The position numbers and the translations under genes were made by a program. Positions 4,668-30,050 of a stretch of 34,401 nt of DNA are shown here, piece after piece. The stretch covers positions 1 through 34,401 of the forward strand of contig JAADHZ010000098.1 of the NCBI GenBank assembly GCA_013151575.1. The letters are read 5' to 3'. This DNA is from Gammaproteobacteria bacterium (GTDB taxonomy: Bacteria; Pseudomonadota; Gammaproteobacteria; SZUA-152). Positions within the stretch are counted from its first letter, which is position 1. Each line of letters begins with the position of its first letter. The notes below the pieces were generated by a model. That model saw nothing but the letters and a program-made list of their open reading frames with translations, was not told where the DNA came from and did not search any database.

Positions 4668-5198
4668 ATGAAACAGGTTTGGACAAGGCTGCTGTTGGGC
4701 GGGTTATGTATCGCAGCTACAGCGGCGGCGGCATCGACGCTCGAAGCCACCTTTCAACAGCTGGATGCAGAGGCGGAAAAAGCCCTCGGCGAAGTGCTAG
4801 TGCTGGGGGCCGAAATGGCCTTGCTGGAGGAATCCCGAACGATTCCACTCAATAACCGGTTAGAAGTGCTGGTATCGATTGAGCCCAGCCCTTTTTTTCG
4901 GTTGGAAGCGGTGCAGCTTCAAGTGGACGGCAAAACCGTCAGTTCTTACACCTACACGCTTAATGAACTAACGGCGCTAAGCAGCGGTGGTGCTCATTCA
5001 CTGTTTCGAGGCGAGCTACCGGCTGGTCGGCATCAACTGGTCGCCGTCCTGTTAGGACGTTTCCCCGAGGATGCCGAATTCAAACGCGAGGTGGCATTCA
5101 TACTAGTCTCAGGAAGCGGGCCTCGCGTGATGGAGCTACGGGTGGAATCCGGGGATGAAAAAACCCCTCCCGGGTTTTTCGTGAAAGAATGGAAGTAA
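4668..5198 (+). CDS. Exported protein of unknown function, first gene of the envelope cluster
   Basis: The 176-residue product begins MKQVWTRLLLGGLCIAATAAAAS, a good Sec signal peptide, so it is probably periplasmic. A short helical part (EATFQQLDAEAEKALGEV) is followed by a beta-rich part with the pattern LEAVQLQVDGK, SLFRGELPAGRHQLVAVLLG, and FILVSGSGPRVMELRVES, suggesting an immunoglobulin-like or ligand-binding sandwich (inference). I chose ATG 4668 because it places the charged n-region right at the start; an in-frame ATG at 4614 would add 18 unlikely residues. Its end overlaps the next gene by 10 bp, implying coupled translation. I do not recognise a named family; its place at the head of the TPR/ExbB/ExbD/AgmX run is the best clue. 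Confidence 0.75.
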   Translation: MKQVWTRLLLGGLCIAATAAAASTLEATFQQLDAEAEKALGEVLVLGAEMALLEESRTIPLNNRLEVLVSIEPSPFFRLEAVQLQVDGKTVSSYTYTLNELTALSSGGAHSLFRGELPAGRHQLVAVLLGRFPEDAEFKREVAFILVSGSGPRVMELRVESGDEKTPPGFFVKEWK

Positions 5199-6703
5199 TC
5201 TTGATTGTCCTGAAGTTCAGCAAATCATTGTGCGCGATGCTGATAGTCCCAGCCCTGTGTTTCGGCACGGGTGTGTCTGCTGCCGCAGCGCTGAAAACCA
5301 CCCCGGTGTCTCAAGAGGCTGTTGCCTGGGAAGGAATAAAATCCCCCCTCCTTCGAGCTGCGCAGTTCGAGCTGTTGATGAGGCGCCCCGTTGCTGCGAT
5401 CACCCGTCTGCTGGCCGATCAATCACAGGGATACTTTGCCCGGCATCCGGCTCAGGCCCGGCTAGTGTTGGGGGGTATCTATCTGGCTTACGGCGCCCAC
5501 TACAAGGCCGAGAGTATTTTTCAGGGCTTGACGATAGCGGAGCAGCCCCAGGGCCTTCGCGACATGGCGCGGTATCAACTCGCCCGGTTGCAATTTCAGC
5601 GCGGCCAGCCGGACGAGGCTCTTGACTCCCTGGGGCGCATCGACGGTGAGTTGCCAGCGAAAATGCAACAGGAACGCATGCTGTTGTCCTCACTACTATT
5701 TTTGCAGGACGATCAATTCGACGAAGCTGAGGATAATCTGCGCAGCATGGAGCACCAGGCGCAGAGGGACGACTCGGACGCCACATCGACCTGGGCCGCT
5801 TACGGCCGCTTCAATCTTGGTGTGACCCTGTTCCGACAAGGGCGGGAGCAGGAGGGCCGCAAACTGTTGGAGGCCGTAGGTAAAATGCCCGCAGACAACA
5901 GCGAAATTCGGGCCTTGCGGGACAAGGCGAATCTGACGCTGGCGTTCAGTTATCTCGGTCTGAATGAGCCGGATGCGGCACAGAAATATTTTGCCAAAAC
6001 CCGGCTGGAGGGGCCGTTGTCCAACAAGGCGCTGCTGGGGCTAGGACGGGCGTATGCCGCCCGAGGCGAGTACAAAAAGGCCTTGACGCCATGGATGCAG
6101 CTCACCAAACGTGACGCCAGCGACCCTTCGGTGCAGGACGGGTTGCTGGCAGTGCCTTTTGCTTTTGGCAAATTGGAGGCATTGAAACAGTCACTGGGGT
6201 ACTACCAGTCTGCGCTGAATGTTTATCAGCAGGAAATGAAACAAGTTCACACCGCAGAGGCCGCAGTCAACAACAGAGCGTTGCTGGACAGCTTAGTGCG
6301 AGGGGTCAGCAGTGAGGCGCTGAAGCAGCGCTGGTTTCTCGCAGATTTATCGGATGTGCCAGGGGCCCGGTATTTGTGGCCATTGTTTTCCACCCACGAA
6401 TTTCAGGAAACATTAAAAAACTACACCCGGATATACCGCTCTCGGGACACGCTGACGCACTGGTCTGCACGGCTTGGCAGCGGTGATATCGACCCGCAAC
6501 TGCGTCGTAGCTTGCAAGACCGCATCGATGCGTTGGAGAAAAAACTGAGCACAACGCAACAGCGCCTCGGCACTCACCTCACGCAATTGGCGCTAATGGA
6601 ACTGAACCGGCGCAAACAGCGTCTGGTGAGTTATGCCGCTGAAGTACGATTTTCCATGGCTCAAATTTATGATTACGCCGCCAAGCGCTGGGGAGGAGAG
6701 TAA
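5189..6703 (+). CDS. Exported TPR-repeat protein
   Basis: A 504-residue protein with a signal peptide (hydrophobic SLCAMLIVPALCFGTG, then AAA) and an alpha-helical repeat body. TPR-like pairs recur from about residue 55 to 330, for example ARLVLGGIYLAYGAHYKAESIF, ARYQLARLQFQRGQPDEALDSL, and ALLGLGRAYAARGEYKKAL. The C-terminal 170 residues are different: they contain the YLWPLFSTHEFQETLKNY segment and a probable coiled coil near 430-490 (RIDALEKKLSTTQQRLGTHL). It is probably a periplasmic scaffold. The start ATG lies inside the previous gene; the stop overlaps the next start (TAATG), so all three are coupled. No enzyme motif is visible. Confidence 0.8.
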   Translation: MEVILIVLKFSKSLCAMLIVPALCFGTGVSAAAALKTTPVSQEAVAWEGIKSPLLRAAQFELLMRRPVAAITRLLADQSQGYFARHPAQARLVLGGIYLAYGAHYKAESIFQGLTIAEQPQGLRDMARYQLARLQFQRGQPDEALDSLGRIDGELPAKMQQERMLLSSLLFLQDDQFDEAEDNLRSMEHQAQRDDSDATSTWAAYGRFNLGVTLFRQGREQEGRKLLEAVGKMPADNSEIRALRDKANLTLAFSYLGLNEPDAAQKYFAKTRLEGPLSNKALLGLGRAYAARGEYKKALTPWMQLTKRDASDPSVQDGLLAVPFAFGKLEALKQSLGYYQSALNVYQQEMKQVHTAEAAVNNRALLDSLVRGVSSEALKQRWFLADLSDVPGARYLWPLFSTHEFQETLKNYTRIYRSRDTLTHWSARLGSGDIDPQLRRSLQDRIDALEKKLSTTQQRLGTHLTQLALMELNRRKQRLVSYAAEVRFSMAQIYDYAAKRWGGE

Positions 6704-9591
6704 TGAACCCCAGGATGTGCGCAATAACGGCTGACGTTTTTTCGTTTGGGGAGCGATTTCAAACAAATGCCTTCCGATATTGGCTAACCGCCCTGATTGT
6801 GCTGTCAGTGGTCGGTTGTGCAACAGAGCAAAAAACCCTAGGTGACCTCAGTGAGGTAGAGATCAACATCGAAACTGACGCCCCTATTCTTGGCGCTCGC
6901 GACAAGGCCATGGACAACTATTGGGAATTCATGGCGGGCTCCCAAGGGCAGTCGCAAACAGTGGAGGCCCTGCGCCGCTTGGCGGATTTGGAGCTGGAAC
7001 GTAGCGAAGAACGTTTTCAAAAGCAGATGGAGGTGTTTGGCCAGGGGCAAGGCGAAGTGAATACCGATGTGGACACACTGAGGAGTATCACCTATCGCAG
7101 CGCAATTAAACTGTACGAAGATGCGCTCAAGGCCGCCGTCGGAGGCCCCCTGGAGGCGGCGATTCTGTACCAGGTGTCCAAGGCCTACGAACAGGCTGCA
7201 CAACAGGAAAAGGCCATACTGACGCTGGAAAAATTATTGGCCCTGGAACCGCTGGCCGCGAATCGGGATGAGTTGCAGTTTCGTCGTGGTGAGTTGTTGT
7301 TTGATCTGCGTCGTTTCACCAAAGCAGAGCAGGCCTACCGACAAGCTATGTTGGCCAATCCGAATTCCGCCTATTTCGAGAAGGCCCTGACGAAACATGG
7401 CTGGGCCTATTTTAAGCAGGAAAAATTCGGGCTGGCATTAGAATCATTTTTTCGTCTGGTGGACCGCAAGTTACAGCCGGTGCCGGGCAAACCAAAAAAA
7501 GTCCTAAGCCGTGGCGACAGTGAACTGCTCAATGACGTGTTTCGTGTGGCCATGCTGGGGTTTGACGAATTGGGGGGCGCCAGCGCCATCAAGGACTATT
7601 TTTCCCGGGTGGGGCGGCGCGACTACGAGACACGAGTCTACCGGCAACTGGGGGAATACTATATTGAAAAGGGACGAATTCGTGACGCCGCCGATACCTT
7701 TGCCGCTTTTGCGAGAAATTTCCCCATGCACGAGCAGGCGTTTGAATTTGATCTCAAGGCGATCGACACGTTCACCGCAGCTGGTTTTTCCAGTGTGCTG
7801 ATGAAACTAAAACGTGATTTCGTGAAACGTTATCGCGTCAAAGGGCCGTATTGGACGCACTATCAGGAACAGGAAGACACGGTGCTCGCCCGGTTAAAAA
7901 AAGCCTTGCAACACAATTCCGAAGACGTTGTGCGTGCCGCTCATGCCCGGGCGCAAAAAACCAAATCCGCACAGGACTATCAGAAAACTTTCTTTTTGTA
8001 TCGTCGGCACCTGAGATGGTTTGGGCAAAGTGACACTGCGCAAAAACTGAATTTCCTGTTTGCCGAATTACTGTTCGAGGCTGGCCAGTTTGAGTCAGCG
8101 GCCAAGGAATACGAAAAAACGGCCTATCGATATGTGCGTTTCGGCAAAAATGTGGAAGCTGGCTACGCCGCCCTACTAGCCTATGCCGAACAGGAAAAAC
8201 GTGCCGAAGGAAAACAAAAAACAATCTGGAGCCGCCTAGCCGTCGGCAGTGCTATGCGTTTCGGGAAAACGTTTCCCAACGACAAACGCGCGGCCAACGT
8301 CTTGACTAAAGCCGCTCAGGACATGTTTGCATTAAAAAAATATTCGCAGGCTGCCGTTGCCGCGCGCCAGATTCTGGAATTGTCGGTGGACCCCAGTGCC
8401 GATACTCGGCGCATAGCCTGGAAAATTATCGCCCGCGCAGAATTCGAAAGAGGCGACTACACACGCGCGGAGGTCGCCTACAAAGTCGCCCTGAGTTTGC
8501 TAGGTCCGAATGACAGCAGCCGCAAGAGTCTGGAGGAAGGTCTTGCCGCGGCGGTATACAAGCAGGGTGAATACATGCGGTCCAAGGGCAACATCAAAGC
8601 AGCCATAATGCAATTCGCTCGCGTTGCGCAGGTGTCACCGGATAGCAGCGTGATCATATCGGCAGAGTTTGATATCGCCGCAAGCATGCTGGAAGCCAAA
8701 AATTGGAACGGGGCGATTCAGGAATTTTTGATTTTTCGACAGACCAACCCCAACCATCCCCTGACGGCAAGAATTCCCGGCCTTCTCATCAAGGCCTATC
8801 TTGCCAGCAGCCAGTGGGTGAAGGCTGCCGAAGAATTGCGGGTGATGGAGCAGGTATTGCGCGAGCCCGAGCAAAAACGGGCGGCTATCTGGCAAGCGGC
8901 AGAGCTTTATGAAAAAGTCGACGATACGCCGAAACTTATCGAACTCTACCAGCGTTACGTTCGTCAGTTTCCCGCGCCATTGGAGCAGGCAATGGAAGCA
9001 CGCCAGAAGTTGGTGGTATTGTATGCAGCTGCTGGCCGGAAGCAGGATCGCGAGCATTGGTTAAAAGAAATTGTACACCACAGTAAGGGGAATGCAGGAC
9101 AAAGCACGCCTCGCATCCGTTACCTGGCCGCGAAGGCCGCCTATGAATTAGCCAAGCCGGAGTTGGCATTGTTTCAAGCCATCAAACTGGTGAAGCCATT
9201 GCGGCAAAATTTGAAGCGTAAAAAACAAAAAATGAAAGCCGCGGTCGATGCCTATATGGTGGCCGCCAACTTCGGCATTGCGGACGTCGCTACCGCATCC
9301 GTTTACTGGGTGGCAGAAATATACAATGAGTTCGGTCAGGCATTAATGTCCTCAGAACGTCCCCCGGGGCTGTCAGAAGAAGAGCTTGAACAATACGATA
9401 TTTTACTCGAAGAACAAGCCTACCCCTTTGAAGAAAAGTCTATTAACATTCACGAAACCAATGTTGAGCGTATCGTTGAAGGAACCTATGATAAATGGAT
9501 TAAAAAGAGCCTGGGCAAACTCATGGAGCTGAGCCCGGTGCGCTATGCCAAAACTGAAAAGGGTGAATTGTTTGCGCAACAAATTTACTAA
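6703..9591 (+). CDS. Large TPR-repeat lipoprotein
   Basis: A 962-residue protein, the largest of the cluster. The N terminus has a lipobox VVGC, with Cys39 followed by Ala-Thr; absence of Asp at +2 predicts sorting to the outer membrane. The 38-residue leader is long, with a charged/polar first 24 residues, so a start further in is possible, but the TAATG junction supports 6703. From about 125 to 860 the protein is a chain of tetratricopeptide-like helical pairs (for example AILYQVSKAYEQAAQQEKAI, RRGELLFDLRRFTKAEQAYR, LLFEAGQFESAAKEYEKTA). The C-terminal 130 residues are less regular. Likely a periplasm-facing OM-anchored scaffold, comparable in role to TPR lipoproteins of other trans-envelope motors; this role is inferred from context. 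Confidence 0.85.
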   Translation: MNPRMCAITADVFSFGERFQTNAFRYWLTALIVLSVVGCATEQKTLGDLSEVEINIETDAPILGARDKAMDNYWEFMAGSQGQSQTVEALRRLADLELERSEERFQKQMEVFGQGQGEVNTDVDTLRSITYRSAIKLYEDALKAAVGGPLEAAILYQVSKAYEQAAQQEKAILTLEKLLALEPLAANRDELQFRRGELLFDLRRFTKAEQAYRQAMLANPNSAYFEKALTKHGWAYFKQEKFGLALESFFRLVDRKLQPVPGKPKKVLSRGDSELLNDVFRVAMLGFDELGGASAIKDYFSRVGRRDYETRVYRQLGEYYIEKGRIRDAADTFAAFARNFPMHEQAFEFDLKAIDTFTAAGFSSVLMKLKRDFVKRYRVKGPYWTHYQEQEDTVLARLKKALQHNSEDVVRAAHARAQKTKSAQDYQKTFFLYRRHLRWFGQSDTAQKLNFLFAELLFEAGQFESAAKEYEKTAYRYVRFGKNVEAGYAALLAYAEQEKRAEGKQKTIWSRLAVGSAMRFGKTFPNDKRAANVLTKAAQDMFALKKYSQAAVAARQILELSVDPSADTRRIAWKIIARAEFERGDYTRAEVAYKVALSLLGPNDSSRKSLEEGLAAAVYKQGEYMRSKGNIKAAIMQFARVAQVSPDSSVIISAEFDIAASMLEAKNWNGAIQEFLIFRQTNPNHPLTARIPGLLIKAYLASSQWVKAAEELRVMEQVLREPEQKRAAIWQAAELYEKVDDTPKLIELYQRYVRQFPAPLEQAMEARQKLVVLYAAAGRKQDREHWLKEIVHHSKGNAGQSTPRIRYLAAKAAYELAKPELALFQAIKLVKPLRQNLKRKKQKMKAAVDAYMVAANFGIADVATASVYWVAEIYNEFGQALMSSERPPGLSEEELEQYDILLEEQAYPFEEKSINIHETNVERIVEGTYDKWIKKSLGKLMELSPVRYAKTEKGELFAQQIY

Positions 9592-9631
9592 TACACTTGA
9601 TATGCGGACCAACCTGCCACCATTTCAGGTT

Positions 9632-10285
9632 ATGAAAATTTGCCGACGTTCTATAACGCGACAGTATGGGCGGCAAGCGGCAAGTGTCGTGCTGATCTGC
9701 TCGTTGATGGCATTACTGCTGGCGGGTTGTGCAACACAGGGGCCTTCCGTCGAACCGCAGGAAAAAACCCAAACCGCTGAACAGGCTCTGCCTAAAATAG
9801 ACCCCAAAGCATCGGCGCTTTTTGAAAAAGCGCTGACCGCGATGCGTAAAGATAAGGATGCTGTTGCGGAAAAACAATTATTACAGTTAACCAAACAGTT
9901 CCCGAATTTTTCCGGGCCGCAGGTCAACCTGGGTATTATTTATTACCGGGCGGGAAAGTATGATATTGCGCGCGAAGCCTTTAACAAGGCACTTGAACTC
10001 AATCCCAAGAGTGTCGCAAGCCTGAATCATCTCGGCATTATCAGTCGGAATGAGGGCAAGTTCAAAGAGTCCTCTGAGGACTATGAAAAAGCCTTGCGAA
10101 TCAACCCGGATTATGCTTACGCTCATCGCAACTTTGGTATTCTGCTGGAGCTGTACATGGGTAGGCTGCCGGAAGCGCTGGCGCACTACAAGCGCTATCA
10201 GACACTTGTCAAACAGCAAAATAACGCGGAAGACGGCGAGGTTAGAAAATGGATAGTGGAATTAGGCAGAAGAATAAAAAAATAG
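9632..10285 (+). CDS. Small TPR lipoprotein
   Basis: From ATG 9632 this is a 217-residue protein opening MKICRRSITRQYGRQ and ending its leader with the lipobox LLLAGC (Cys33, then Ala), predicting an outer-membrane lipoprotein. Three clear TPR units lie near residues 65-165: QVNLGIIYYRAGKYDIAREAF, LNHLGIISRNEGKFKESSED, and HRNFGILLELYMGRLPEALA. In-frame ATGs at 9602 and 9545 are alternative starts; 9545 would overlap the preceding gene, and none has a strong ribosome site. Its layout (lipobox, low-complexity spacer, three TPRs) is like PilF/PilW-type pilotins, but here the neighbours are ExbB/ExbD/AgmX, so a similar assembly or docking role in that machine is inferred rather than pilus biogenesis. 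Confidence 0.8.
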   Translation: MKICRRSITRQYGRQAASVVLICSLMALLLAGCATQGPSVEPQEKTQTAEQALPKIDPKASALFEKALTAMRKDKDAVAEKQLLQLTKQFPNFSGPQVNLGIIYYRAGKYDIAREAFNKALELNPKSVASLNHLGIISRNEGKFKESSEDYEKALRINPDYAYAHRNFGILLELYMGRLPEALAHYKRYQTLVKQQNNAEDGEVRKWIVELGRRIKK

Positions 10286-10560
10286 CGGCTATTGCATTGT
10301 TGGTAGTATTGCTGGCTTCTGTGGCCGTTGCGGAAGACCGCTTGAACCTGGAAGGTGATTCCATCGTCGGGAGCCGGGAACTGCCCAAGGTGTTGTACAT
10401 TGTGCCGTGGAAAAGCGCTAGGCTGGGGGCTTTGGCAGGCGGCGCTGGCAGCAGTTCGCTGGACACAAGCTGGGAGGCGCTGGATCGAGATCTGTTTCGG
10501 CGGCAAGTCGGGTATTACGAAATGTTGTATAGCGCCAATGACAAAGAATCATTAAAATAG
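10249..10560 (+). CDS. Small exported protein of unknown function
   Basis: A 103-residue protein overlapping the previous gene by 37 bp; GAGG eight bases before the ATG is a reasonable ribosome site. It has a signal peptide (KKIAAIALLVVLLASVAVA, cleavage probably before EDR). The mature part, about 75 residues, contains the striking segment ELPKVLYIVPWKSARLGAL and ends LFRRQVGYYEMLYSANDKESLK. The segment before the C terminus (SSLDTSWEALDRDLFRRQV) is probably helical. I do not recognise a named family. It is the last gene before a 354-bp gap and then the ExbB-like gene, so it closes the first half of the cluster. Confidence 0.75.
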   Translation: MDSGIRQKNKKIAAIALLVVLLASVAVAEDRLNLEGDSIVGSRELPKVLYIVPWKSARLGALAGGAGSSSLDTSWEALDRDLFRRQVGYYEMLYSANDKESLK

Positions 10561-10914: not shown

Positions 10915-11571
10915 ATGGATGTCTTTAACACAGGCGTAAAGTTTTTCCAGGAAGGTGGCTGGTTTATGTACCCCATCGTATTAGTGTTTGCGTTAGGCGC
11001 GGCCATTGCTTTGGAACGTTACATTTACCTGAGCGCCGCCAAGCGCAGCAATCGCACTATGTGGGAGAAACTCACGCCGCTGGTGAAAGCGAACAACTAT
11101 GACCAGGCGATGGCATTGAGCAGCCGCTCAAAAACCGAAGTGGGGAAAATTCTGTCCTATGGGTTGAGCCGGTTACGCGTCACCCATCGGCGCGATGACA
11201 TCGAAATCGCCATGGAAGAAGGTTTGATGGAAGTGATCCCCCGCCTGGAAAAACGCACCCATTATCTAGCCACCTATGCCAATATCGCCACGCTCTTGGG
11301 TCTGTTGGGCACCATCATCGGCCTGATTCAGGCGTTTACCGCTGTGGCAAACGCCAACCCTGCGGACAAGGCTGATCTCCTGTCAGCCAGTATTTCCGTT
11401 GCCATGAACACCACCGCGTTTGGTTTGATGGCTGCCATTCCCTTGTTGCTGCTATACACCGTGTTACAGACCAAAACCACCGAGTTGGTTGACAGCATGG
11501 AAATGGTCACGGTGAAATTCCTCAACGCCATCACGGAATTTCGTAACGAATCTGCCCGGTCATCGGATTAA
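10915..11571 (+). CDS. MotA/TolQ/ExbB family proton-channel protein
   Basis: A 218-residue inner-membrane protein with the three-helix ExbB/TolQ layout: helix 1 near 16-37 (MYPIVLVFALGAAIALERYIY), a cytoplasmic loop, helix 2 near 120-142 (ANIATLLGLLGTIIGLIQAF), and helix 3 near 158-182 (AMNTTAFGLMAAIPLLLLY). Family members form a pentamer around an ExbD/TolR dimer and convert proton flow into motion. The Thr of helix 3 is present (TTAFGL), but aligning AAIP with E. coli ExbB puts Val where Glu176 should be. The AAGGAG ribosome site is strong. exbD-like gene 1 starts 15 bp downstream. Distinct from the flagellar motA at 27875, which has the longer four-helix form. Confidence 0.9.
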   Translation: MDVFNTGVKFFQEGGWFMYPIVLVFALGAAIALERYIYLSAAKRSNRTMWEKLTPLVKANNYDQAMALSSRSKTEVGKILSYGLSRLRVTHRRDDIEIAMEEGLMEVIPRLEKRTHYLATYANIATLLGLLGTIIGLIQAFTAVANANPADKADLLSASISVAMNTTAFGLMAAIPLLLLYTVLQTKTTELVDSMEMVTVKFLNAITEFRNESARSSD

Positions 11572-11586
11572 ACAGGACCTTCACAA

Positions 11587-12081
11587 ATGTCCGTCAGAAG
11601 TCGCGTCAGACGCTCGGCTACCGAAGCGCCAGAACTAAACATCACTGCCTTCATGAACCTCATGGTGGTATTGGTGCCCTTTTTGCTGCTGTCCGCAGTA
11701 TTTTCCAATTTGGCCATTCTCGAACTGAACCTTCCGCCGGACAGCTCCGCTCAGGCCAATAAAAACCAGAAAAAAGAACGCAATTTTGAAGTGATTGTGC
11801 GTAAAAACAAACTGGTTGTTGCGGACACACTCGGGGGCGTCATCAAAACAATTCCCAACGTCAAAGGAAAACATGATTTCAAAACGCTTTCCGATATTTT
11901 GATGAGACTCAAAGCGCGTTTTCCCAAAAAGCAAAACATTACACTGTTGTTGGAACCACAAATTCCTTACGATTTACTGGTCCAGTCAATGGATACTGCA
12001 CGCTCCGTTGAGGTCATCGAAATGGCGTCAGTGGTCAGGAAAGAACTGTTTCCTCAAATCGCCATCGGTGATGCGCCATGA
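11587..12081 (+). CDS. ExbD/TolR family protein 1, Asn in place of the motor Asp
   Basis: A 164-residue protein with a short cytoplasmic basic N terminus, one transmembrane helix (about 18-44) and a periplasmic domain, the ExbD/TolR plan. The helix begins LNITAFMNLMVVLVPFLL, which aligns without gaps to E. coli ExbD INVTPFIDVMLVLLIIFM; the essential protonatable Asp25 corresponds to Asn24 here. The periplasmic part ends RSVEVIEMASVVRKELFPQIAIGD, as expected for an ExbD/TolR fold. Its stop overlaps the start of the second ExbD (ATGA), so both are made together. The substitution suggests this protomer cannot carry protons itself and works paired with the second protein; that pairing is inference. 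Confidence 0.88.
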   Translation: MSVRSRVRRSATEAPELNITAFMNLMVVLVPFLLLSAVFSNLAILELNLPPDSSAQANKNQKKERNFEVIVRKNKLVVADTLGGVIKTIPNVKGKHDFKTLSDILMRLKARFPKKQNITLLLEPQIPYDLLVQSMDTARSVEVIEMASVVRKELFPQIAIGDAP

Positions 12082-12584
12082 ACAAGTCCCGCCGCGCCAA
12101 GCGGATGTCGCGCCATCACGCGCGCACCAAGCGTGGGGCTTCGCTCAACATGGTGTCGTTAATGGATATTTTTACCATTTTGGTATTTTTTCTGTTGGTG
12201 AGTTCATCGTCGGTAAAGGATTTGCCTAATGCAAAACAGATTCAATTGCCGGAGTCGATTTCTGATCAACTGCCCAAGGAAAATGTCGTCATCATGGTGA
12301 GCGAGACAGATATCGTGGTGCAGGGGCGAAAAGTCGCATCCGTGAAAGATGTGAATAAATCATCGGTGCTGGAAATCAAACCGCTGAGAAAAGAGCTGGA
12401 ACGCCTGGCCAATCGCAGCGTCGTCACGACGCTGCCGGATGGCAAGCCCGTCCCGCGCGAAGTCACCATCATGGGAGACAAAAAAATTCCATTTGAATTA
12501 CTCAAAAAAATCATGTTGACCTGCACCAAAGCCAACTACGGGAATATCTCTTTAGCCGTATTGCGCAAATCAGGCGAAGGGTAA
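12078..12584 (+). CDS. ExbD/TolR family protein 2, motor Asp present
   Basis: A 168-residue protein with a strongly basic N terminus (NKSRRAKRMSRHHARTKRG), a single transmembrane helix LNMVSLMDIFTILVFFLLV and a periplasmic domain. Asp30 sits where E. coli ExbD has Asp25 and TolR Asp23, so this protomer is expected to be proton-competent. The periplasmic domain (VVIMVSETDIVVQG, KKIPFELLKKIMLTCTKANYGNISLAVLRK) has the family's alternating strand/helix pattern. It overlaps exbD-like gene 1 by four bases and is followed six bases later by the AgmX-type gene. Sequence similarity to protein 1 is low outside the helix, so this is not a recent tandem duplicate. Confidence 0.9.
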   Translation: MNKSRRAKRMSRHHARTKRGASLNMVSLMDIFTILVFFLLVSSSSVKDLPNAKQIQLPESISDQLPKENVVIMVSETDIVVQGRKVASVKDVNKSSVLEIKPLRKELERLANRSVVTTLPDGKPVPREVTIMGDKKIPFELLKKIMLTCTKANYGNISLAVLRKSGEG

Positions 12585-13571: not shown

Positions 13572-14402
13572 TTAAACCGACAAGTCCAGTGGCTTACGAG
13601 TTTGTTCATTACCAGGCAGGACCGCATTTTCGGCCTGCCGATAGACTTCAATGCCCGGTTCAATTGCGCGTGCGGAAGGCCTGTTAGCACCTGGGCTGTC
13701 GTTATTTTCTTCCCTGCTGTTTTTTGCCTCACTGAGCAGGTCCACCTGGGCCTGCACCGCCATTTGTCCGGCCTCGGCCGCAATAGTGCGATCCTGCTCT
13801 GAGGGTTGTGCCGGTGCCAGGGCGGCAACGCGAACCGTGTCTGCTTTTTGCAGGGTCGCCTGCGGATCGCCCTCCACAGCTGAGACATCAATGCTGACTT
13901 CACCGCCCACCGCGTAACGGCGGCCATCTGCCCCCTGCTGATAGCTAAAACTGGCGGAGCCTTGGGCCAGAGCTCCCGCAGCGGCTTTGTGCGCGGCTTC
14001 GTGAGCCTTAACTTCCCGATCGCGGGTTTTGAGTTCATCCAGCTGACGTTGGTCAACCTCGGGCAGGTTATTGCCTCGGGCACCACGGTTTTTTTTCTCG
14101 GCACCGGTCGCCGTTGCACCATCAGCAGCGGCTTTTTCTTCGGGTGCGGTGGTGCTGGTTTCGGTGATGCTGGTTTTTTCACCGGGTTGGACCGGGATAC
14201 TGCGCCGGGCCTCGGCCGAGCCCGCCTTCGATTCCGTGTTCTCTCTCAGCGGGCTGCCCGCCCTGTTGGGCTCGGCGGTGTCTGCAATGGCGACAACCGG
14301 CCCTGCTGAACGGGTTTGCGTCCCCACTTGCGAGTCGAATGGTTGGCGCGGCAGCGTAGATTGAAAAGCGTTAGTTGGGGAAAGTCCGATGGTGTTTATC
14401 AT
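13572..14402 (-). CDS. SprA-family putative metalloprotease
   Basis: A 276-residue protein whose middle carries the SprA-related (PF12118-like) core: LKTRDREVKAHEAAHKAAAG with the zinc-type HExxH motif as HEAAH at 134-138, then SFSYQQGADGRRYAVGGEVSIDVS. The flanks are low complexity: residues 30-110 are rich in Ala, Glu, Thr and Gly, and the C terminus after 200 is polar. Relatives are annotated as CJM1_0395-type putative metalloproteases; function is unproven. No signal peptide is apparent. It lies 15 bp downstream of the short flagellar-rod-like gene and ends 12 bp from the convergent AgmX-type gene. Confidence 0.8.
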   Translation of the reverse strand: MINTIGLSPTNAFQSTLPRQPFDSQVGTQTRSAGPVVAIADTAEPNRAGSPLRENTESKAGSAEARRSIPVQPGEKTSITETSTTAPEEKAAADGATATGAEKKNRGARGNNLPEVDQRQLDELKTRDREVKAHEAAHKAAAGALAQGSASFSYQQGADGRRYAVGGEVSIDVSAVEGDPQATLQKADTVRVAALAPAQPSEQDRTIAAEAGQMAVQAQVDLLSEAKNSREENNDSPGANRPSARAIEPGIEVYRQAENAVLPGNEQTRKPLDLSV

Positions 14403-27874: not shown

Positions 27875-28736
27875 ATGAAATTTATTATCGGAGTTATCAC
27901 GGTGGTGGGTTGTGTGGCGGGGGGATTTGTCCTGTCGCACGGTAATCTGATGGCGCTGTGGCAGCCTTTTGAATTGCTTGCTGATTATCGGCGGCGCAGC
28001 CTTCGGGGCATTCGTGATTTCCAATCCCGGCACGGTGATTAAGGGTGCATTGGGTTCCATCGGTAAACTCCTGTCTGGTTCAAAACATAATAAGCAGAGC
28101 TTCATGGAGTTGCTGTCACTGATGTACGACCTGTTTACCAAGGCGCGCAAGGAGGGCTTGATGGCGCTGGAGGCCGATATCGATGAGCCTGAAAACAGCC
28201 CCATTTTTCAGAAATATCCCAAAATCCTCAAAAATCACCACGCGCTGGAATTCATTGCCGATTACCTGCGCCTGATGGTGGGGGGCAATATGAACCCTTT
28301 TGAGATCGAAAATCTGATGGATGTAGAGCTGGAAACCCACCACCATGAAGCGGAAAAAATCCCGGGCGCGATCACGGCTGTGTCAGATGCACTGCCTGGT
28401 TTTGGCATTGTAGCCGCAGTGCTGGGCATCGTGATTACCATGGCCTCCATCGGCGGTCCTATTGAAGAATTGGGGCATCACGTGGCCTCAGCCCTGGTGG
28501 GCACCTTTCTGGGTATTCTGCTGGCCTACGGTTTTGTAGGGCCCATGGCCACCAGTTTGACGAATATGAACGAAGATGACAGCAAAGTGTTTGAATGCAT
28601 CAAGGTATGTTTGTTGGCCACGTTGAATGGTTATGCTCCGCAGATTGCCGTGGAATTTGGGCGTAAGACCTTGTATTCCCACAATCGTCCGGGTTTTCAG
28701 GAGCTGGAAGATTTTGTCAAAGGCAAGGCCGAATAA
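27875..28736 (+). pseudogene. motA: Flagellar stator motA, broken by a 4-bp tandem duplication
   Basis: Inner-membrane stator protein of the flagellar motor. The N-terminal frame reads MKFIIGVITVVGCVAGGFVLSHGNLMALWQPFELL and then leaves the family; the next frame continues IIGGAAFGAFVISNPGTVIKGALGS to a normal C terminus (ELEDFVKGKAE). At 27974-27981 the DNA is TTGCTTGC; removing one TTGC gives GAA TTG CTG ATT ATC (ELLII), exactly the MotA sequence, and a 285-residue protein close to the usual 295. The cytoplasmic charged loop (KARKEGLMALEADIDEPENS) and stator helices (GFGIVAAVLGIVITMASIG) are intact. Either a recent mutation, slipped-strand variation, or a sequence error. The C-terminal part alone would lack helix 1. 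motB follows 48 bp downstream. Confidence 0.9.
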
Positions 28737-28784
28737 TCCCCGCGAGACAGGCGCCTTGACAGCGTATTAGCCTGGAAAAACCCC

Positions 28785-30050
28785 ATGGACAACCAGACGA
28801 TTGTCGTCAAAAAGATAAAGAAGGGTGGGCACGGCCATCATGGTGGCGCGTGGAAGGTGGCCTTTGCCGATTTTGCCGTGGCCATGATGGCGTTTTTTTT
28901 ACTGCTGTGGCTTATCGCTTCCACCACCAAGGAAGAAAAAGCGGGGTTGTCCGAGTATTTCAGCCCACCCACCCAGGGTTTTGCCGATGGCAGCGGCGTC
29001 AGCAAAGATATTATCGATATGGGAGGGGGACAGAAAATTTCCCAAGGTGATGATTCCAGCGAGAATGCCCGGGAGGCCCGCGCGCCTAACGAGGCGGAAA
29101 TTCAGCAAGCCGTCGAGATGGAAAAAGAACGGCTGGAATCGTTGATGGAAGACCTGAAAAAGGCCATTGAGGCCAGCCAGGCCCTCAAACCTTTCAAGGA
29201 CCAATTGTTGCTGGACATTACAGCGGAAGGTTTGCGCATCCAGATTGTCGATAAAGAAAACCGCCCCATGTTTGACAGTGGAAGCGCGGAGCTGAAGGAC
29301 TACACCAAGGTCATTCTGCACGAACTCGCCAAGAGCATTAACACGGTGCCCAACAAAGTCAGCCTCACCGGCCATACGGATGCGACGCGTTTTGTGGGGC
29401 GAAAAAATTACAGCAATTGGGAATTGTCGGCGGACCGTGCCAACACCTCCCGCCGCGAGCTGATTACCGGTGGGCTCAAGGATGGAAAAATAGTCAAGGT
29501 GATGGGGCTGGCATCCACGGTATTATTTAACAAAGCGGAACCGCGTAGCCCCATCAACCGACGCATCGCGATCATCGTGATGAACAAGGCTGCCGAGGAG
29601 GCCCTGCTGAGTCCGGTACAGCCAGTATCCGACGGTGAAGAGGCCAGGGTATTGATAGAGCAGGGTGTGGGTGGCGCAACGGTGCAGAAACCCGTTGAGA
29701 AAATCGCCCGCGAACAGGATGGAAAAAATGAAGGGCAACATGCGCACGATACTGAAGTCGCCGCTGATGCCAAGGCAAAACATCCGTTAGAACCGGTGCC
29801 GACGGAAACTCCCGCCGCAGAGCTGAAGGCGACTCAGGACATTCCACCACCCCCAGTGTCAGAAGGCCACCACGAAGCTGGGGGTGAGCCCGCAGGAAAA
29901 CATGCTCAAGGCAACAAAAAAACGGCCAAAAAACGCCCACCGACGGCAGAGCCTGGCGAGCCCGACTACACGGGCATGAGCATTGCGGAGCGTATCAAAG
30001 CGCGGCGAGAATGGAATCGCCAACGCAGCAAAGCGGCCAAAAACCGGTGA
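28785..30050 (+). CDS. motB: Flagellar stator protein MotB with long C-terminal tail
   Basis: A 421-residue stator partner of MotA. The N terminus GGHGHHGGAWKVAFADFAVAMMAFFLLLWLI holds the transmembrane helix with the proton-binding Asp29. The plug/linker region follows, then an OmpA-like peptidoglycan-binding domain (LRIQIVDKENRPMFDSGSAEL to SLTGHTDAT, NWELSADRANTSRREL, EPRSPINRRIAIIV, ending about 270). The remaining 150 residues are low complexity: Glu/Ala/Pro/His-rich, then Lys/Arg-rich (GNKKTAKKRPPTAEP, RIKARREWNRQRSKAAKNR). E. coli MotB has 308 residues, so the tail is an extension. Translation does not depend on the motA frameshift, but stator function would. Confidence 0.95.
   Translation: MDNQTIVVKKIKKGGHGHHGGAWKVAFADFAVAMMAFFLLLWLIASTTKEEKAGLSEYFSPPTQGFADGSGVSKDIIDMGGGQKISQGDDSSENAREARAPNEAEIQQAVEMEKERLESLMEDLKKAIEASQALKPFKDQLLLDITAEGLRIQIVDKENRPMFDSGSAELKDYTKVILHELAKSINTVPNKVSLTGHTDATRFVGRKNYSNWELSADRANTSRRELITGGLKDGKIVKVMGLASTVLFNKAEPRSPINRRIAIIVMNKAAEEALLSPVQPVSDGEEARVLIEQGVGGATVQKPVEKIAREQDGKNEGQHAHDTEVAADAKAKHPLEPVPTETPAAELKATQDIPPPPVSEGHHEAGGEPAGKHAQGNKKTAKKRPPTAEPGEPDYTGMSIAERIKARREWNRQRSKAAKNR

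Follow-up and report, generated by a model that had tools for sequence, protein, structure and literature searches.

Genomic context of the paired axle genes

The window, meaning the whole 34,401-nucleotide stretch of gammaproteobacterial DNA that was analyzed, carries on its forward strand an operon in which two neighboring genes code for ExbD/TolR-like axle proteins, here termed P1 (11587–12081) and P2 (12078–12584). The well-conserved part of the operon is headed by a gene for a 504 amino acid protein with Pfam TPR matches (5189–6703), which also lies upstream in 42 of the 52 long relative loci. The operon then continues with a TPR lipoprotein-like protein of 962 amino acids (6703–9591; Pfam TPR; 50 of 52 loci); judged by position and TPR content alone, the two products are GltC-like and GltD-like, respectively. 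They are followed by a GltE-like TPR lipoprotein (9545–10285; 51 of 52 loci) matching the NCBIfam GltE model NF033758 at 1.1e-15, below its curated cut-off, and by a predicted small secreted protein (10249–10560; 50 of 52 loci). An AglR-like ring subunit of the MotA/TolQ/ExbB type (10915–11571) was identified from Pfam MotA_ExbB (1.2e-29) and a PDB TolQ alignment, and precedes P1 and P2 at the positions of AglQ and AglS. The gene after P2 (12591–13559; 52 of 52 loci) encodes a GltG/TonB-like transducer with an AgmX/PglI C-terminal domain, scoring above the cut-off of NCBIfam NF033768 (1.4e-19) and sub-threshold against the GltG model NF033760 (9.3e-17).

The gene order TPR-TPR-GltE-small protein-AglR-P1-P2-GltG was kept in approximately 50 of the 52 long relative loci. 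Gammaproteobacteria, Marinobacter and Saccharophagus among them, are reported to carry the Agl/Glt core clustered in one region, and an extra core gene absent from the Myxococcales has been mentioned for the class (Luciano et al., 2011; PMC3169522); the product of 10249–10560 is probably this additional protein. Its RELPxVxxIVPW motif is conserved and the protein occurs in nearly all Agl/Glt core operons examined. The aglR-aglQ-aglS order with adjacent gltE and gltG genes, recognized through the GltE, GltG, and AgmX/PglI model matches, places P1 and P2 in an Agl/Glt core operon related to the gliding motor AglRQS of Myxococcus and not in a Ton/ExbBD system, a context that the first-pass annotation had missed.

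Other features were observed downstream in the window. A gene for a SprA-related family protein (PF12118, 3.6e-32) lies on the reverse strand at 13572–14402, convergent with the operon end. A second ion-motor stator pair occupies 27969–30050 on the forward strand, comprising a 255 amino acid open reading frame at the MotA place and a MotB-type protein with MotB_plug and OmpA domains (28785–30050).

Proton-site residues of P1 and P2

Both proteins scored above the Pfam ExbD cut-off (PF02472; 5.5e-11 for P1 and 3.3e-17 for P2) and are members of the ExbD/TolR family, consistent with PDB profile matches to ExbD and TolR. Single-chain structure prediction gave each protein one membrane helix and a periplasmic alpha/beta domain, which is the PF02472 architecture of a single N-terminal helix followed by a periplasmic ExbD domain, and a Foldseek search with the P1 model returned weak matches only. 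The P1 transmembrane helix, NITAFMNLMVVL, spans residues 19–42 in the AlphaFold2 model (11641–11712) and places Asn24 (codon AAC, 11656–11658) at the ExbD/TolR proton-site position, aligned with Asp25 of Escherichia coli ExbD. The P2 helix, NMVSLMDIFTIL, has Asp30 (codon GAT, 12165–12167) at that position, the sole transmembrane carboxylate of the pair. The first-pass annotation had reported the two open reading frames, their helix motifs, and the Asn24 versus Asp30 difference, and all of these agreed with the sequence. Of the two proteins, P2 thus carries the mid-helix proton-carrying Asp typical of PF02472 and P1 has Asn in its place. A compensating carboxylate within P1 was considered and rejected, as no acidic residue was found elsewhere in the hydrophobic stretch of its helix. 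The three other ExbD/TolR proteins of the same genome all have Asp.

Conservation of Asn in P1

Among 238 distinct P1-P2 pairs from Gammaproteobacteria, a tally that reflects sampling and not natural frequencies, 196 had Asn, 40 had Asp, and two had Ser at the P1 site, while the P2 residue was Asp in every pair, a distribution far beyond chance. In 57 related genomes, Asn was present in all P1 orthologues adjoining P2 except in genome G040. A scan of genome contigs for which P2 served as the query, to avoid favoring Asn in P1, gave Asn/Asp (P1/P2) at 80 of 80 loci. Sampling 274 Gammaproteobacteria genomes evenly yielded approximately 69 strong P2 places, and those that were read and intact were Asn/Asp with the exception of G040. 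Within the family of G040, the best 30 operons were all Asp/Asp, and 10 of 20 among its other members were Asn/Asp. Class and phylum samples contributed more Asn/Asp pairs plus two Ser/Asp pairs. In the latter (loci L226 and L293), Ser replaces Asn24 and the P2 Asp is kept.

The P1 proteins with Asn are diverse, with a median identity of approximately 46% between random pairs in the final set and a tree of 183 sequences amounting to 60.5 substitutions per site. Only T20, N24, L33, L34, K109, and Y128 were invariant among these 183 proteins. The Asn codon was AAC in 89 cases and AAT in 65, indicating synonymous turnover, and a single base change would turn it into an Asp codon; the invariance of Asn24 together with this turnover and the proximity of Asp codons therefore argues that selection keeps Asn itself. 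A local mutation or sequencing error was rejected, since Asn is fixed across many families. The first-pass annotation had proposed checking whether P1 orthologues retain Asn, and had stated that Asp in P1 orthologues, or an Asn confined to this genome, would speak against a design feature. Retention held for the 196 Asn pairs and failed in the one clade of 40 Asp pairs, and the breadth of the Asn pairs mainly favors a design feature.

Pairing of P1 and P2

Exactly one P1 and one P2 gene were present in all 287 loci holding P1. The P1 stop codon and P2 start codon overlap by four bases (ATGA, 12078–12081), which is likely to allow translational coupling. Across 223 operons, a spacing of −4 was found in 50% and a spacing between −10 and +20 bases in 93%, and such close coupling of the genes suits equal synthesis of two partners. 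P1 and P2 formed separate clades (SH-aLRT 99 and 94, respectively). No natural P1-P2 fusion that could prove the pairing was found among the loci examined; in the degenerate cluster at locus L183, a long frame was rejected as a fusion because it is simply extended from stop to stop. That cluster has P2 and a GltG-like fragment, with AglR and P1 absent. The similarity between the P1 and P2 helices was likewise discarded as a marker of operon type, differing little when the trait column was left out (0.34 versus 0.36).

Ring subunit and putative proton path

Alignment with PDB TolQ placed AglR T133 at TolQ T145 and T167 at T178, the two residues named as proton-transport residues in TolQ (PMC12965293). 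Both threonines were invariant in 223 of 223 AglR sequences of both operon types, so that AglR has the proton-path threonines of a 5:2 motor ring subunit. The adjoining T166 is type-specific: the N165-T166-T167 segment is nearly invariant and T166 shifts with the Asp/Asp type. Unlike TolQ with Glu173, AglR has V162 at the corresponding position (11398–11400), and this residue was always Val, Thr, Ile, or Leu across the Asn/Asp operons. Loss of the TolQ Glu173 counterpart was rejected as a specific partner of the P1 Asn, since Val also dominates the Asp/Asp operons (36 of 39, with Glu in three).

The Asp/Asp clade

The 40 Asp/Asp operons are one clade within one family, and the partial sequence of one of them (locus L184) has most of the Agl/Glt core gene order, including the small secreted protein. 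In a concatenated AglR, P1, and P2 tree from which the helix columns had been removed, this clade (support 94) had as its neighbor the Asn/Asp operons from its own family (95). When TolQ/ExbB relatives were used to root AglR trees, Asp/Asp was nested inside Asn/Asp, although a monophyletic Asn/Asp group was not rejected by an approximately unbiased (AU) test (p = 0.37). On these phylogenies, the direction of change was likely from Asn/Asp to Asp/Asp.

The differences that accompany this change affect all three proteins: T20V, A21P, F22M, N24D, L25I/V/M, and P31F/T in P1; S27P, L28M, M29I, F32L, F37V, and S42H/Y in P2; and T166N/C and T142A in AglR. A joint change of P1, P2, and AglR residue 166 is what a single AglR ring shared by P1 and P2 would lead one to expect, and as the co-variation stems from a single transition it counts as one piece of evidence whatever the number of sequences.

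Two further operons have mixed helices. Locus L292 keeps the P1 Asn with a P2 helix reading VPMID, making the P2 proline motif compatible with Asn in P1, while locus L286 keeps the P1 Asn with a P2 helix (ISMID) that is partly towards the Asp/Asp pattern; the proline at P1 position 31 is missing in both. L292 and, in part, L286 are possible intermediates of the switch.

A candidate heterodimeric axle with one proton carboxylate

The reading we favor, and hold to be somewhat probable, is that P1 and P2 are two different axle subunits in one Agl-type proton motor, AglR5-P1-P2, with an obligate heterodimeric axle (a 5:1:1 stoichiometry) and a single proton carboxylate. Proton binding and release would be carried out by P2 alone via Asp30, and Asn24 of P1 would act as a permanent mimic of the protonated, neutral state. 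A proton would enter by the AglR Thr133/Thr167 path and neutralize Asp30, upon which the ring would turn and the proton leave. As each AglR subunit would meet one titratable site per turn, approximately five protons would be used per revolution in cycles of about 72 degrees, instead of ten in cycles of 36 degrees. The fixed asymmetry may also present a defined face of the periplasmic shaft to GltG. Pairing as a heterodimer with an asymmetric or half-frequency stroke, as suggested by the first-pass annotation, fits all the evidence. That annotation had also called alternating proton transfer by two Asp residues established, which is overstated as it is a model. In this turnstile model, two equivalent sites alternate with one proton per 36 degrees and a permanently neutral site is restricted to one set of angles, so that an Asn/Asp motor would need altered gating; a changed gating rule for neutral sites fits the remodeled helices.

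The chief rival to this reading, considered unlikely, is that the working motor is built from P2/P2 homodimers with two Asp residues and that P1 is a non-conducting relative, either forming inactive P1/P1 or P1/P2 units that tune motor number or acting as an adaptor to peptidoglycan or GltG. It would account for the ordinary axle-protein features being retained by P2 alone and for the non-conducting character of Asp-to-Asn versions such as AglQ D28N, and contact between P1 and P2 is something we infer. However, an adaptor or brake has no obvious need for an invariant Asn in its helix or for changing together with P2 and AglR residue 166, intact operons never lose P1, and the P1 carboxylate of the Asp/Asp clade makes most sense with P1 inside the ring.

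It is distinctly improbable, in our estimation, that Asn24 itself takes part in ion handling, for instance in a hydrogen-bonding relay with AglR N165/T166/T167, such that the Asn/Asp pair would be one composite site with altered pKa or ion choice. The near invariance of the N165-T166-T167 segment with its type-dependent T166 would agree with such a relay, as would the hydrogen-bonding capacity of both replacements of Asn24, Ser and Asp; however, the two axle helices in 5:2 motors are turned towards different subunits of the ring, making a shared site geometrically uncertain. A relaxed remnant, in which the P1 site drifted functionless once P2 carried the proton, would suit a neutral site and the two occurrences of Ser (L226 and L293), but can hardly be credited: drift would yield many residues, whereas across 183 diverse proteins Asn24 is one of only six positions that never vary, and its codon turns over synonymously.

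Comparison with known motors

The AglR-P1-P2 set shares with AglRQS, the motor for gliding and sporulation in Myxococcus xanthus, the R-Q-S order, in which a single MotA/TolQ-like protein is followed by two of the ExbD/TolR type, and GltE- and GltG-like partners (PMC3169522). M. xanthus requires all three of aglR, aglQ, and aglS (PMC3858216), indicating that its two TolR-like proteins are not interchangeable. The AglQ D28N substitution abolished conductance and motility there (PMC3858216), which tells against our reading in that a motor evolved with Asp does not tolerate Asn at this site. A review gives Asp for both AglQ and AglS and lists their assembly as homodimers or heterodimers as unknown. 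P1 is the AglQ counterpart as judged by gene order and length only; in contrast to AglQ with its functional Asp28, P1 natively has Asn, whose introduction into AglQ inactivates the Myxococcus motor.

Likewise, P1 and P2 share the ExbD/TolR family with the axles of ExbB5-ExbD2 and TolQ5-TolR2, and AglR keeps the TolQ T145/T178 threonine pair. In those motors the axle is a homodimer carrying two Asp residues, whereas the operon studied here encodes two diverged axle proteins with one Asp. Two adjacent ExbD genes by ExbB are also found as ExbD1/ExbD2 in Xanthomonas and other Ton systems, but in the two paired ExbD loci compared (L186 and L187) both proteins have Asp. The operon is of a known kind, and the native Asn/Asp division of its axle proteins appears to be new for an Agl-type motor; no description of such a division was found in the open-access literature searched.

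We tentatively propose, with somewhat less confidence than the heterodimeric axle itself, that 5:2-type motors include a large, naturally occurring class, represented by these operons, whose heterodimeric one-site axle uses five protons per turn, and that the switch from one site to two occurred once, in a single family, through joint remodeling of the two axle helices and a residue of the ring. An axle partner that natively lacks a carboxylate offers a natural test system for the question of AglQ/AglS heterodimers versus homodimers, and the Asp/Asp sister clade provides a built-in comparison for the Asn/Asp motors. Instead of the two proton sites usually taken for granted, the motor may operate with a single one across a large bacterial group.
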